A stretch of 64,000 bases of DNA from contig NZ_JAUSVK010000001.1 of the NCBI RefSeq assembly GCF_030814655.1, forward strand, positions 2,437,501 through 2,501,500. The letters run 5' to 3'. Origin of the DNA: Labrys monachus. GTDB taxonomy: Bacteria > Pseudomonadota > Alphaproteobacteria > Rhizobiales > Labraceae. Below the pieces are notes generated by a model. It was not told the origin of the DNA, did no database searches, and saw only the letters and a list, made by a program, of their open reading frames with translations. Positions 45,301 through 50,561 of this stretch are shown piece by piece. The stretch's first letter is position 1; every line of letters begins with the position of its first letter. The translations under genes were made by a program, and so were the position numbers.

Positions 45301-45375
45301 CTGGGACCGCAGGCTTCCAGCCTGCCCTTGCTCTTTGTCTTTGCGGGAAAGCAGGCTGGAAGCCTGCGGTCCCAG
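45301..45375. repeat. REP-type inverted repeat, GGCTTCCAGCC head, perfect arms
   Basis: The left arm begins CTGGGACCGCAGGCTTCCAG and continues CCTGC; the right arm is its exact mirror, ending CTGCGGTCCCAG. The 25-base arms are perfect. The spacer contains CTTGCTC and GCGGGAAAG. The pair lies between the acyl-CoA dehydrogenase and thiolase genes, inside an apparent operon, so it may shape the message 3' end. Confidence 0.95.
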
Positions 45376-45389
45376 GGAGGAATCGCCCG

Positions 45390-46598
45390 ATGACCGATGT
45401 CTACATCTACGATGCGGTGCGCACGCCCCGCGGCCGCGGCAAGGCCGACGGCGCTCTCCACGAGGTGACGAGCCTGTCGCTGGCGAGCCAGGCGCTCGCC
45501 GCGCTCGCCAGGCGCAGCGAACTGCCCGAGAACGCGGTCGAGGACGTCATCCTCGGCTGCGTCGACCCGATCGGCGAGGCCGGCGGCGATATCGCCCGCA
45601 TCGCCGCGCTGCATGCCGGGCTCGGCGAGAAGGTGCCCGGCGTGCAGATCAACCGCTTCTGCGCCTCCGGCCTCGATGCCGTGAACCTGGCCGCCGGCCA
45701 GGTCGCCGGCGGCCAGAAGGACCTGGTGGCGGCCGGCGGCGTCGAGAGCATGTCGCGCATCGGCATGATGGCCTCGGGCGGCGCCTGGGCCTTCGATCCC
45801 TCCAGCGCGGTGCCGACCTGGTTCATGCCGCAGGGCATCTCCGCGGACCTCATCGCCACCAAATACGGCTTCTCGCGTTCCGACGTCGACGCCTATGCCG
45901 TCGAATCGCAGCGCAGGACGGCGCAGGCCTGGGACGAAGGCCGCTTCGGCGGCTCGGTGATCCCGGTGCGCGACGTCAACGGCCTCGTCATCCTCGGCCG
46001 GGATGAACATATGCGGCCCTCCACCACCATGCAGTCGCTCGCCGCCCTCCGGCCGGCCTTCGTCGAGATGGGCGAGATGGGCGGCTTCGACGCGGTGGCC
46101 GTGCAGTCGCATCCGGAAGTCGAGAAGGTCGAGCATGTCCACCATGCCGGCAATTCCTCGGGCATCGTCGACGGCGCCGCGGCGGTGCTGGTGGGGTCCG
46201 CCGAAGCCGGCAGCCGCTTCGGCCTCAAGCCGCGCGCCCGGCTCAGGGCGGCCGCCTCGATCGGGTCGGACACCGCGCTGATGCTGACCGGGCCGGTCGA
46301 CGTGACGGAGCTGATCCTGCGCAGATGCGGCATGAACACCGCCGACATCGACCTTTTCGAGATCAACGAGGCCTTTTCCTCAGTGGTGCTGCGCTACATG
46401 CAGGCCTTCGACCTCGATCCCGCCCGCGTCAATCCCTGCGGCGGTGCCATCGCCATGGGCCATCCGCTCGGCGCGACCGGCGCGATGATCCTCGGCACGG
46501 CCCTGGACGAATTGGAACGAACCGGCAAGTCGGTGGCGCTGGTGACGCTGTGCGTCGCCGCCGGCATGGGCGCGGCCACGATCATCGAGAGGGTGTGA
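45390..46598 (+). CDS. Acetyl-CoA C-acyltransferase (thiolase)
   Basis: A 402-residue thiolase of the degradative/biosynthetic type. The nucleophile Cys91 is in [13 protein letters not shown], the second His in [18 protein letters not shown], and the third motif Cys in [33 protein letters not shown] is the conserved Asn-Glu-Ala-Phe stretch. It releases acetyl-CoA from 3-ketoacyl-CoA in the last step of beta-oxidation. It is coupled to the next gene by an overlap of one base (TGATG). Confidence 0.95.
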
Positions 46599-48805
46599 TG
46601 GAACTCGTCAATTTCCGCTTCGACGTCGACGCCGACGGCATCGCCCTCGCGATCTGGGACATGCCGGACCGTTCGATGAACGTCTTCACCCCGACGGCGA
46701 TGGAGGAACTCGGCGGCATCGTCGACCACGTCGTCGCCGACACGGCGATCAAGGGCTGCGTCATCGCCTCCGGCAAGGAGAGCTTTTCCGGCGGTGCCGA
46801 TCTCACCATGCTCGAAGGGCTGGGGCGCCGCTACGAGGCGGCACGGCACGAGATCGGCGAGGAGAAGGCGATGGAGGTCTTCTTCGCCGACAGCCGCGCC
46901 TTGTCGCAGCTCTTCCGCCGGCTCGAGACCTGCGGCAAGCCGTTCGCCATCGCGATCGACGGCATCTGTGTCGGCGGCGCCTTCGAGCTGGCGCTCGCCT
47001 GCCACTACCGCATCGGCGCCGCCGACAACGACAAGGCCCGCGTCGGCCTGCCCGAGATCAAGGTCGGCCTGTTCCCCGGCGGCGGCGGCACCATCCGCGT
47101 CTCGCGCCTGATGAAGCCGGACCAGGCCCTGCAGATGCTGCTCAAGGGCGAGCAGCTGCGCATGGCGCAGGCGCAGAAGATGGGCCTGATCCATGCCCTC
47201 GCGCCCCGCGGCGAACTGGTCGCCAGGGCGAAGGACTGGATCCGCGTCGGCGGCTCGCCGATCGCCCCCTGGGATGTCGACGGTTTCCGCCTGCCCGGCG
47301 GGCCGGTCTATTCCAAGGCCGGCACGATGGTCTTCCCGCCGGCCAACGCGATCTACCGCCGCGAGACCTATGACAATTATCCGGCGGCGCGCGCCCTGCT
47401 GCAGACCGTCTATGAAGGACTTCAGCTGCCCTTCGACACCGCCTTGAGGGTGGAATCGCGCTATTTCGCCCATGTCCTGCGCAGCCGCGAGGCGGGCGCC
47501 ATGATCCGCACCCTGTTCGTCTCGATGCAGGACCTCAACAAGGGCGCCCGCCGGCCGGCCGCGCCCAAGGCCGGCCTGAAGCGCATCGGCGTCGTCGGCG
47601 CCGGCTTCATGGGCGCCGGCATCGCCTATGTCGCCGCGCTGGCGGGGCTCGACGTCGTGCTCGTCGACCGCGACCAGGAGGCGGCCGACAAGGGCAGGGC
47701 CCATTCGGAGAGCCTGATCACCGGGCAGATCCGCAAGGGCCGGGCCACCACGGCGGAGCGGGACGCCTTGCTCGCCCGCATCACCGCGACGCCGGACTAT
47801 GGCGCGCTCGCCGGCGTCGATCTCGTCATCGAGGCGGTGTTCGAGGACCGCGGCGTCAAGGCTGAGGTGATCGCCAAGGTCGAGGCGGCGATCGGGCCGG
47901 ACACCATCTTCGCGTCCAACACCTCGACGCTGCCGATCGGCTCGCTCGCCGCGGCCTCGAACAATCCGGCGCGCTTCGTCGGCATCCATTTCTTCTCGCC
48001 GGTGGAGAAGATGCTGCTCGTCGAGGTGATCAAGGGCGCAAACACCGGCGACGGGGCGATCGCCACCGCCTTCGACTTCGTCAGGCTGATCCGTAAGACG
48101 CCGATCCTCGTCAATGACGGCCGCGGCTTCTTCGCCAATCGCTGCGTGCTCAACTATATCCGCGAAGGCCATCTGATGCTGGGCGAGGGCGTGCCGCCGG
48201 CGATGATCGAGAATGTGGCGCGGGCGGCGGGCATGCCGGTCGGCCCGCTCTCGCTCAACGACGAGATCGCCATCGACCTCGCCTGGAAGATCCTGCAGGC
48301 GGCGAAGAAGGATCTCGGTCCGGACGCCGTCGATCCCGCCCAGGAGCGGCTGCTCGACGCCATGCTCCACCAGCATGGCCGGCTCGGCCGCAAGAACGCC
48401 AAGGGCTTCTATGATTATCCGGCCGTCGGCGCCAAGCGTCTGTGGCCGGGGCTCGCCGAGCTGCAGCCGGCCAAGCTCGATCCGGACACCATCGACATCC
48501 CCACCTTGAAGCATCGTTTCCTGGTGACGCAGGCCCTGGAGGCGGCGCGGACGGTGGAGGACGGCATCATCACCGACATGCGGGAGGCGGATGTCGGCTC
48601 GATCCTCGGCTTCGGCTTCGCGCCCTTCACCGGCGGGGCGCTGTCCTATATCGACGGCATGGGCACGAAGGCCTTCGTCGCGCTGTGCGACAGGCTCGCC
48701 GCCGCCCATGGGCCGCGATTCGAGCCCAACGGCCTGCTGCGTGCGATGGCCGTGAAGGACGAACGCTTCTATCAGCGCTTCAAGCCGGCGCCGAAAGCGG
48801 CGTGA
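46598..48805 (+). CDS. Multifunctional enoyl-CoA hydratase/3-hydroxyacyl-CoA dehydrogenase
   Basis: A 735-residue FadJ/FadB-type enzyme. The N-terminal crotonase domain (1-190) has the two catalytic Glu in [15 protein letters not shown] and [16 protein letters not shown]. The NAD-binding dehydrogenase domain begins with [21 protein letters not shown] (about 328-348), then [25 protein letters not shown] and [16 protein letters not shown], and a second dehydrogenase C-domain follows. It carries out steps two and three of beta-oxidation. Its ATG overlaps the thiolase stop. It ends directly before the RAYT unit. Confidence 0.95.
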
Positions 48806-48810
48806 TGCTC

Positions 48811-48889
48811 CCGGGACCGCAGGCGTCTCGCCTGCTCTTTCCGGAAGCGCCGCGTTTCCAGAAGCAGGCGAGACGCCAGCGGTCCCGGG
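48811..48889. repeat. REP-type inverted repeat, GGCGTCTCGCC head, next to the RAYT
   Basis: CCGGGACCGCAGGCGTCTCG at the left mirrors AGACGCCAGCGGTCCCGG at the right, with GCAGGC/CGCCTGC inner hairpins. It ends two bases before the restored stop of the transposase reading frame at 48892. The spacer has TTTCCGGAAG and TTTCCAGAAG, the same layout as other pairs. Confidence 0.93.
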
Positions 48890-48891
48890 AA

Positions 48892-49461
48892 TTATCGTTT
48901 CGTTCGATGGTTTGAGGCGCTCGAAAAGCGCCATTGTTCCGGCGTGCTGCACAAGCGAGCCTTGACAGGGTTTTGCTCAATATAGAAGCATGCGGTCTAA
49001 AAATGGCGTTCATCGCGTATTCTGCGGTCGAAATACTCCTTGAACCAGACTTGGCCGTCGCGATTCAATGCCTGGTTGATCCGGTGAGCTGAGAACGATT
49101 TCCAGGCATGCGCCAGTGAAGACAGGCTGTGTTCCGCCAGGGGTGTCACCAAGGCGTGGACATGATTGGGCATCACGCACCATGCGTGCAGATGGTAGCG
49201 TATGCCGTCGAAGAACAGCATGGCGTCCTCGACGATCGCACCGATGTCAGACCGCGCCAAAAAGGCCTCGCCATGGCCTTGATCGAGGACGGCCTCTATG
49301 CGCCTTCGCTCCTCGATCTTCGCCTTGCTTTCGGGCCAGGAGGCAAGATCGGCCAGATATCGATCGACGACGGCGCGCGGAAGGGAATCGGCGAGGCGAA
49401 AGCAAATCGCCTGAGGTACTTCGCCAGCTTCCCAATGGGGGAGGTACCCCGCGAATGCCAT
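48892..49461 (-). pseudogene. REP-associated tyrosine transposase broken by one amber codon
   Basis: The reading frame encodes a Y1 (RAYT) transposase: LPHWEAGEVPQAICFRLADSLP, YHLHAWCVMPNHVHALVTPL with the metal-binding His-x-His, and WFKEYFDRRIRDERHF with the candidate catalytic Tyr. A TAG at 48999-48997 interrupts it, but the same frame continues for 34 more codons ([28 protein letters not shown]) to a TAA at 48892-48894. That is the normal RAYT C-terminus, so a single nonsense change broke an otherwise full-length gene. REP arms flank it on both sides. The upstream start is uncertain (ATG 49461 or a TTG at 49527). It may still be made by readthrough, but I call it a pseudogene. Confidence 0.9.
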
Positions 49462-49528
49462 TCCCGACTGGATTTCATGGCCCCTCTTCGAGACCGTATG
49501 ACTCTTGCTGCAATGCAGCGTTTCCAAG

Positions 49529-49554
49529 AGCAGGCGAGGCGCCTGCGGTCCCGG
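49529..49554. repeat. Single REP arm upstream of the RAYT
   Basis: AGCAGGCGAGGCGCCTGCGG then TCCCGG repeats the right arm of the pair at 48811-48889 with one swapped word. With that pair it brackets the transposase, giving a unit from 48811 to 49554 that lies between the FadB-like stop and the pyrD stop. Confidence 0.85.
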
Positions 49555-49559
49555 CGGGA

Positions 49560-50561
49560 TTACAGCCCCCGCTTGATCTCCCCGATCAGGCCCGGCCCCT
49601 TGTAGATCAGGCTCGAATAGAGCTGCACCAGCGTGGCGCCGGCTTCGAGCTTGGCCTTGGCCGTCGCCGCCGAATGGATGCCGCCGACGCCGATGAGGGG
49701 GAACTTGCCGGCCACCCGCCGGGCGACTTCCGCCAGGACGCGGGTGGAGAGATCGAACAGCGGCGCTCCCGACAGCCCACCGCCTTCGCGCGCCGTCTCC
49801 TTGTCCTTCAGGCTGTCCGGCCGGGCGATCGTGGTGTTGGAGACGATCATGCCGTCGATGCCGCGGCCGAGCGCCACGTCGATGATGTCGTCGAGTTCAT
49901 AGGCGGTGAGGTCGGGCGCGATCTTGAGCAGGAGAGGCCGGCGCGGCGCCTTCAGCGCGATCTCGTCCCGCGTCTCCACCACGCGGGCGAGCAGGCTGTC
50001 GAGCGCTTCGCGTTTCTGCAGGTCCCTGAGGCCGGGCGTGTTGGGGGAGGAGATGTTGAGGGTGAAATAGGAGGCGACCGGCGCAAAGGCGACGATGCCG
50101 GCGGCATAGTCCGCCGCCTTGTCCTCGCTGTCCTTGTTGGCGCCGACATTGACGCCGAGGATGCCGCCGGCCTTGCGCGCCCGGAGCCGCGCGAGCACGG
50201 CCTGGTGGCCCTCATTGTTGAAGCCGAAGCGGTTGATCACGCCCTGGTCGGCCGGCAGGCGGAACAGGCGCGGGCGCGGATTGCCTTCCTGCGGCCGCGG
50301 CGTGACGCTGCCGATCTCGACGAAGCCGAAGCCGAGGCGGAACAAGGGATCGACGACCTCGCCGTTCTTGTCGAAGCCGGCGGCCACGCCGACGGGATTG
50401 GGAAAGTCGAGGCCGAAGGCGCGGACCGCCAGCCTCGGCGGATCGGGGGCCATCGGTGGGAGCGGCAGCGTGCGCAGCGCCATGAGTGTCCGCTCATGGG
50501 CGCGTTCCGGGTCCATCCGGAACAGCAGCGGGCGAATCAGCGGGAAGAAAGCTGCGATCAT
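49560..50561 (-). CDS. pyrD: Dihydroorotate dehydrogenase (quinone), class 2
   Basis: A 333-residue FMN enzyme of the inner membrane that oxidises dihydroorotate with quinone for pyrimidine synthesis. The N-terminal helices (AFFPLIRPLLFRMDPERAHERTL) are the class 2 quinone-binding extension. The barrel shows NPVGVAAGFDKNGE, SVTPRPQEGNPRPRLFRLP, FNNEG, NVGANKDSED, YFTLNISSPNTPGLRDLQ (catalytic Ser), LLLKIAPDLT, MIVSNTTIARP and LIGVGGIHSA. ATG 50561 overlaps the DUF952 stop by ATGA. Confidence 0.96.
   Translation of the reverse strand: MIAAFFPLIRPLLFRMDPERAHERTLMALRTLPLPPMAPDPPRLAVRAFGLDFPNPVGVAAGFDKNGEVVDPLFRLGFGFVEIGSVTPRPQEGNPRPRLFRLPADQGVINRFGFNNEGHQAVLARLRARKAGGILGVNVGANKDSEDKAADYAAGIVAFAPVASYFTLNISSPNTPGLRDLQKREALDSLLARVVETRDEIALKAPRRPLLLKIAPDLTAYELDDIIDVALGRGIDGMIVSNTTIARPDSLKDKETAREGGGLSGAPLFDLSTRVLAEVARRVAGKFPLIGVGGIHSAATAKAKLEAGATLVQLYSSLIYKGPGLIGEIKRGL

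Follow-up and report, generated by a model that had tools for sequence, protein, structure and literature searches.

A minus-strand reading frame for a REP-associated tyrosine transposase (RAYT, TnpA-REP) that meets a TAG codon and continues in the same frame beyond it raises two questions: whether the gene is dead or decoded across its stop, and whether it forms one unit with the REPs around it. The window, meaning the whole 64,000-nucleotide stretch of Labrys monachus DNA that was analysed, comes from a genome represented by a single 6.92-Mb contig. Within it, the whole REP-RAYT-REP unit occupies 744 bp (48811–49554) between two ORFs with putative assignments, one FadB-like (46325–48805, plus strand) and the other a pyrD-like dihydroorotate dehydrogenase (49560–50561, minus strand). 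The RAYT frame runs from 49527 to a TAA at 48894–48892 with one TAG inside it, at 48999–48997 on the minus strand (codon 177 counting from the TTG at 49527), and it resumes past this TAG as a recognisable RAYT C-terminus that extends to the TAA. The frame, the stop and the continuation described in an earlier sequence-only reading of this DNA were borne out.

That reading had also placed the RAYT between its own REPs, and the arrangement was confirmed. A REP pair (REPIN, 48809–48890) lies on the fadB side and a single REP (49528–49554, minus strand) on the pyrD side. The outer REP of the pair (48811–48836, plus strand) has the head GGGACCGC, a 7-bp stem and a TCT loop, while the inner REP occupies 48863–48888 on the minus strand. 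The pair is a near-perfect inverted repeat with a single-stranded DNA folding energy of -42.8 kcal/mol (z -11.6); folded singly, the three REPs gave z values of -2.4, -1.4 and -2.3. The outer REPs constitute 38-nt inverted ends that are 87% complementary. As in a REPtron, cognate REPs are thus found on both sides of the gene. Most REPtrons have a GT[AG]G foot, with subclass 2.6 and class 3 as exceptions, according to the available part of PMC6006769. This guide was not found 5' of the hairpin in the window REPs, where the head is GGGACCGC.

Profile comparisons identified the frame as a RAYT. The part before the TAG matched Pfam Y1_Tnp and NF047646 (NCBIfam, REP-associated tyrosine transposase; 6.5e-15, profile 33–119), and the part after the TAG matched NF047646 on its own (2.1e-4, profile 125–146). 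When read through the stop, the whole frame scored 89.5 bits, above the curated cut-off of 80, which makes the RAYT match more than chance; the part before the TAG alone scored 55.3 bits, under that cut-off. Against IS200/IS605 TnpA (NF033573), the part before the TAG scored 24.4 bits, under the curated cut-off of 55. The HUH motif (HVH of PNHVH, 49156–49164, minus strand) is present before the TAG. The catalytic tyrosine codon (48982–48984, minus strand), in YIEQNP, is located 3' of the TAG and is therefore absent from the translated product, which marks the gene as a RAYT pseudogene and not a working RAYT. The sequence-only reading had assigned both motifs to the part before the stop, which is correct for the HUH motif and incorrect for the tyrosine. 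In an alignment of the intact paralogue L002 from the same genome with E. coli TnpA-REP (PDB 4ER8), the Y of Y-I-E-x-N-P, and with it the window codon, corresponds to chain residue 115, which we take to be the catalytic tyrosine.

With respect to the TnpA-Y1 subclasses of Quentin et al. 2018 (PMC6006769), compared by way of its Table 1, the Y---NP pattern fits class 2 and the combination of WF with GGGANCGC matches no row. All 11 Labrys copies described below have F or Y immediately after the conserved W, whereas most class 2 rows of this table have WQ or WE. The idea that this residue, which is Q95 in E. coli, might go with the type of REP head was discarded, as loci with WQ (for example L063, L089, and L095–L097) also have GGGANCGC by eye.

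The sequence-only reading held a single amber codon responsible for the silencing. A second lesion, a frameshift, was found; the gene is therefore disrupted in two places, at its start and upstream of the codon for its nucleophile. Counted from the ATG that opens the conserved start through to the TAA, the pseudogene spans 48892–49478 (minus strand). The conserved start reads ..EWHSRGYLPHWEAGE.. in relatives and is split between two frames in the window (49440–49478, minus strand), with EWHSRG in the frame of the ATG at 49478 and YLPHWEAGE onward in another.

A search of 100 genomes, the window genome included, gave matches at E ≤ 0.001 in 11, most of them weak. Four Labrys genomes (the window genome, KNU-23, WJW, and L. 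okinawensis) together contain 11 RAYTs of this clade, a count that excludes the distant RAYTs L005, L006, L027, and L036 and weak matches in G004. Six copies are open (L002, L015, L016, L025, L026, and L032) and five are broken (the window copy, L003/L004, L031, L017, and L034); the window genome thereby holds the intact L002 and the frameshifted L003/L004 in addition to the window copy. Four of the ten other copies, spread over three genomes, are also broken, so such decay is common across the genus. Two of the excluded sequences, L005:1402–2094 and L006:1396–2118, form a near-identical pair of a different, longer RAYT type within the same genome (2683496 and 3679842).

The gene order fadB-pyrD-next ORF-PBP, in which the gene names are putative, is common to the window, KNU-23 (G001), WJW (G002), and L. 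okinawensis (G003); for G004, pyrD but no fadB match was present in the 8 kb taken, and its gap is uninformative. The KNU-23 gap (L050:3184–3965) contains REPIN-RAYT-REPIN, with the RAYT opposite to the window orientation and carrying its own, different frameshift. In the WJW gap (L051:4142–5664), which gave no RAYT match, a REP-like pair is accompanied by a duplicated piece of pyrD and approximately 1 kb of other DNA. In L. okinawensis (L052:2984–3070), the gap of approximately 87 bp has no RAYT, and its inverted repeat pair (GTGTCGACCT type) is unrelated. The window and KNU-23 RAYTs are sisters in a tree of 84 rows (SH-aLRT 91, not starred), 69% identical, and mutual nearest rows. This tree was built without the frameshifted L060, L068, and L126; L031 and L017 are pieces of the same genes that replace L060 and L068, and L126 (= L034) stayed outside. 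Our preferred history starts from a single inherited copy, in which the segment between the REP arms was later inverted and which was then disrupted by different lesions in the two species. Independent insertions of the two copies into the same REP-rich gap are a possibility that we take seriously without favouring it: the opposite orientations suit it, as does a gap that attracts repeats even where no RAYT is found, as in WJW and L. okinawensis, but the sister relationship, the identity and the mutual nearest rows argue for the single inherited copy.

The lesions themselves admit other explanations. One or both could be sequencing or assembly errors in an intact gene, as only one strain is represented, the frameshift adjoins a G run, and the sequence is a single contig of unstated read type. 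This is nevertheless improbable, given that the TAG is a substitution relative to relatives and not an indel, and that broken copies occur elsewhere in the genus. It is still less probable that the cell makes a truncated HUH product lacking the tyrosine and uses it as a regulator that binds REPs. From G27 on, the part upstream of the TAG does keep the residues that are invariant in six intact aligned relatives, but its start is out of frame, and natural ends at HF, which the sequence-only reading had named as evidence against itself, were seen in none of the ten other Labrys copies. All ten have a sense codon at the TAG column; the earlier expectation of Lys, Gln or Arg there held for one copy and failed for nine (by eye).

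TAG terminates 7 of 31 window ORFs, picked by length and codon-position G+C, and likewise the intact paralogue L002. A loose pattern scan for a tRNA with a CUA anticodon, which may miss an unusual tRNA, gave 3 matches versus 19 in the reversed control, the sole match at a tRNA being tRNA-Arg(tct), and thus no credible candidate. Regulated amber readthrough in a living gene, with the TAG sometimes decoded and full-length RAYT made, which the sequence-only reading had offered as one outcome, is unlikely as the main reading because TAG is an ordinary stop here, and barely credible given a frameshifted start that readthrough does not cure, even though conservation extends to both sides of the TAG, dN/dS is low, and many bacterial in-frame stops have been argued not to be pseudogene marks (PMC7918605).

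The alternative outcome of the earlier reading, recent loss, was supported. In 166 gap-free columns covering 10 of the 11 Labrys copies (L034 was left out), the window copy has 2 private departures from otherwise invariant positions, compared with 0–4 in the other nine rows. Its dN/dS to the sister is 0.14, a rough guide only, as the dS of 1.68 is near saturation. The few private departures and the low dN/dS indicate that the window copy has probably not been long adrift as a pseudogene. The low dN/dS would also suit a gene still in use, and translation from the ATG at 49461–49459 could yield a protein in which EWHSRG alone is missing; both points count against a dead gene. On balance, we conclude with good confidence that the window unit is a decayed REP-RAYT-REP cassette (REPtron) between fadB and pyrD that was broken twice. 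Loss of the RAYT was probably recent because there are two breaks, the RAYT C-terminus is still recognisable, conservation is not visibly relaxed, and only five REP sites of its type were found. A broken RAYT is in itself routine, since RAYT pseudogenes have already been described.

Before its loss, the ancestral RAYT, as an HUH and tyrosine nuclease, would have had its own REP as substrate, recognised as a single-stranded hairpin (GGGACCGC head, 7-bp stem, and TCT loop). The enzyme may have cut and rejoined this hairpin, thereby moving REPs and REPINs or the whole REP-bounded unit. The window REPs would now be passive hairpins between two convergent genes.

The pattern GGGANCGCNNGCNNCNNGCNNGC identified 74 REP sites in the window genome and 0 in the reversed control of that genome; the count refers to this genome alone and, with 14 fixed bases in the pattern, overlooks REPs that have diverged, those of L003 among them. 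The window stem type accounts for five genome sites, three at the locus and two as a pair at 1760079–1760153. The commonest stem, AGGCTTCCAGCCT, is present at 21 of the 74 sites, and the window itself has sites of this stem at 2716–2734 (single) and 45307–45369 (pair). The second commonest, GGGCGTCTCGCCC (16 of 74), was not seen beside any of the window genome's three RAYTs of this clade. The intact paralogue L002 is flanked by AGGC(T/A)TCC(A/T)GCCT-type REPs. The dead window RAYT is accompanied by few REPs of its stem and the intact L002 by many, which agrees with the model in PMC3686654; that paper describes nonsense and frameshift mutations in RAYTs of Pseudomonas and Stenotrophomonas, and cognate REPs that dwindle once the RAYT is lost. 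REP number is, however, an unclean sign of the RAYT state, because the GGGCGTCTCGCCC stem is numerous without an assignable clade RAYT.

The wider clade was sampled as the best 80 of 260 confirmed hits, in which most nested records (see below) are metagenome bins. The density of GGGANCGC was 1.88/kb near the RAYT versus 0.22/kb far from it (approximately 8.5-fold), with the motif near the RAYT in 46 of 80 loci. For the whole REP pattern at ≤1 mismatch, the density was 2.13/kb within approximately 400 bp (127 in 59.7 kb) versus 0.058/kb beyond (25 in 429.7 kb), an approximately 37-fold difference obtained with a pattern built on Labrys and with near flanks that take in nested units. By locus, the whole pattern was present on both sides in 41, on one side in 9 and on neither in 30. 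The GGGANCGC head, which differs from the usual GT[AG]G, is enriched beside this RAYT clade across phyla. No paper on REPs with a GGGANCGC head in place of GT[AG]G was found in the open literature searched.

Relatives in this sample support the claim that the unit consists of the gene plus its REPs more strongly than the window does. Open frames of >700 codons hold 26 of the 80, and in 21 of the 80 the host is a DUF1156 methylase (L062–L067, L069–L072, L074, L077, L079–L081, L084, L085, L093, L100, L102, and L129), with homology to uninserted genes on both sides in 20 and on one side in L080, at a contig end. A PADLOC scan of seven of these 21 (L063, L065, L066, L071, L100, L102, and L129) gave an HmaB match in all seven, and in L071 the nested HmaB is preceded by HmaA and followed by HmaC. 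The host homology breaks off and restarts at the REPs: both junctions lie ≤30 nt from a REP end in 18 of 20 loci, the exceptions being L070 and L084, when the REP pattern is allowed ≤3 mismatches and the nearest REP is picked by hand. The host match extends 18–30 nt into the REP in L069, L071, L085, and L100. Uninserted homologues are collinear across the insertion site (5 stretches aligned); six of seven uninserted stretches were usable, L156 having no recognisable host ORF. The left end of the host falls at residues 450–454 of L155 or the equivalent in 14 of 21 loci, within approximately 10 residues of this main point in L072, L077, L084, and L093, and elsewhere in L079, L081, and L129.

In-frame translation of the hairpins gives LGARASRP and RAGRPRS in L071 and L065. 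Across five nested pairs, which are not independent and some of which have saturated dS, dN/dS was 0.08–0.29 for the RAYT part and 0.07–0.34 for the host parts; the fused frames thus look kept. Parsimony on the 84-row tree gave 11 switches between nested and free states, with at least 3 forced by starred branches. In a class-wide search, a DUF1156 match was present in 13 of 289 genomes, and none of the 6 host ORFs read from this set contained a RAYT motif, so that nesting is not the rule in that class. The window genome (G000) has no DUF1156 match. Further REP-like peptides (for example SAGVPPA and QDARAP) were observed elsewhere in the HmaB-type frames L062:3061–7053 and L063:3258–7106, as if REPs could insert in frame on their own as well.

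RAYTs in frame were also observed in other hosts, with host domains on both sides in leucyl-tRNA synthetase from two Akkermansiaceae bins (L113:3786–6959 and L131:3636–6965), PglX (L135:3909–8519) and a type IIG restriction enzyme (L132:2340–6593), and with just one flanking host domain in a chorismate-binding enzyme (L130:4263–6572). None of these five loci yielded a REP of the Labrys pattern, and the cassette reading accordingly rests on the DUF1156 loci. We consider it moderately likely that REP-RAYT-REP of the GGGANCGC clade is a discrete mobile cassette, which can be free of stops over its full extent, the REP hairpins too, and that it has repeatedly settled in frame in host genes across phyla. 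With similar, moderate confidence, the DUF1156/HmaB phage-defence methylases appear to have received it mostly at one position, and the window unit appears to be a dead intergenic member.

No report of REP-RAYT-REP nesting in DUF1156 genes was found in the open literature with a limited set of search terms, and the DUF1156 and RAYT literatures found there did not overlap. Specifically, the available text of PMC12839542, which concerns BREX-related systems and DUF1156, does not contain 'transposase', 'RAYT' or 'HUH'. In-frame REPs within tnpA-REP genes have already been described (PMC6006769), and the same paper notes a lack of direct comparative evidence for the movement of whole REPtrons. The relatives of the window RAYT bear on this very point, whether a RAYT travels with its REPs, and the nested cassettes, if correctly read, would be direct comparative evidence of that kind. 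The REP borders at host junctions, together with uninterrupted homologues, offer testable insertion sites. Purifying selection on RAYT domains in HmaB genes further raises the question of whether the nuclease was co-opted for anti-phage defence or is merely tolerated.

Among known systems, TIRYT/TIRtron elements, in the available part of PMC3733652, resemble the window unit in having a tyrosine transposase between terminal inverted repeats. Their repeats have the motif GGGGWSAS, which is absent from the window terminal repeats; the window ends are hairpin REPs with GGGANCGC and read CCGGGACCGC. The likeness to RAYT/TnpA-REP and REPtrons, as portrayed in the available parts of PMC6006769 and PMC2817692, comprises the HUH motif, Y---NP, REP inverted repeats on both sides, and the presence in one genome of several RAYTs whose REP stems differ; unlike these, the window copy is broken and its REP head is GGGANCGC instead of GT[AG]G. 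With the pseudogenised RAYTs of PMC3686654, so far as the available part describes them, it shares nonsense and frameshift lesions, but differs in genus and REP family, in having two lesions, and in having a sister in the corresponding gap that has the reverse orientation and its own break. Finally, the Hma methylase HmaB, as defined by PADLOC models, hosts many of the nearest non-Labrys relatives in frame, whereas the window copy stands alone between genes.
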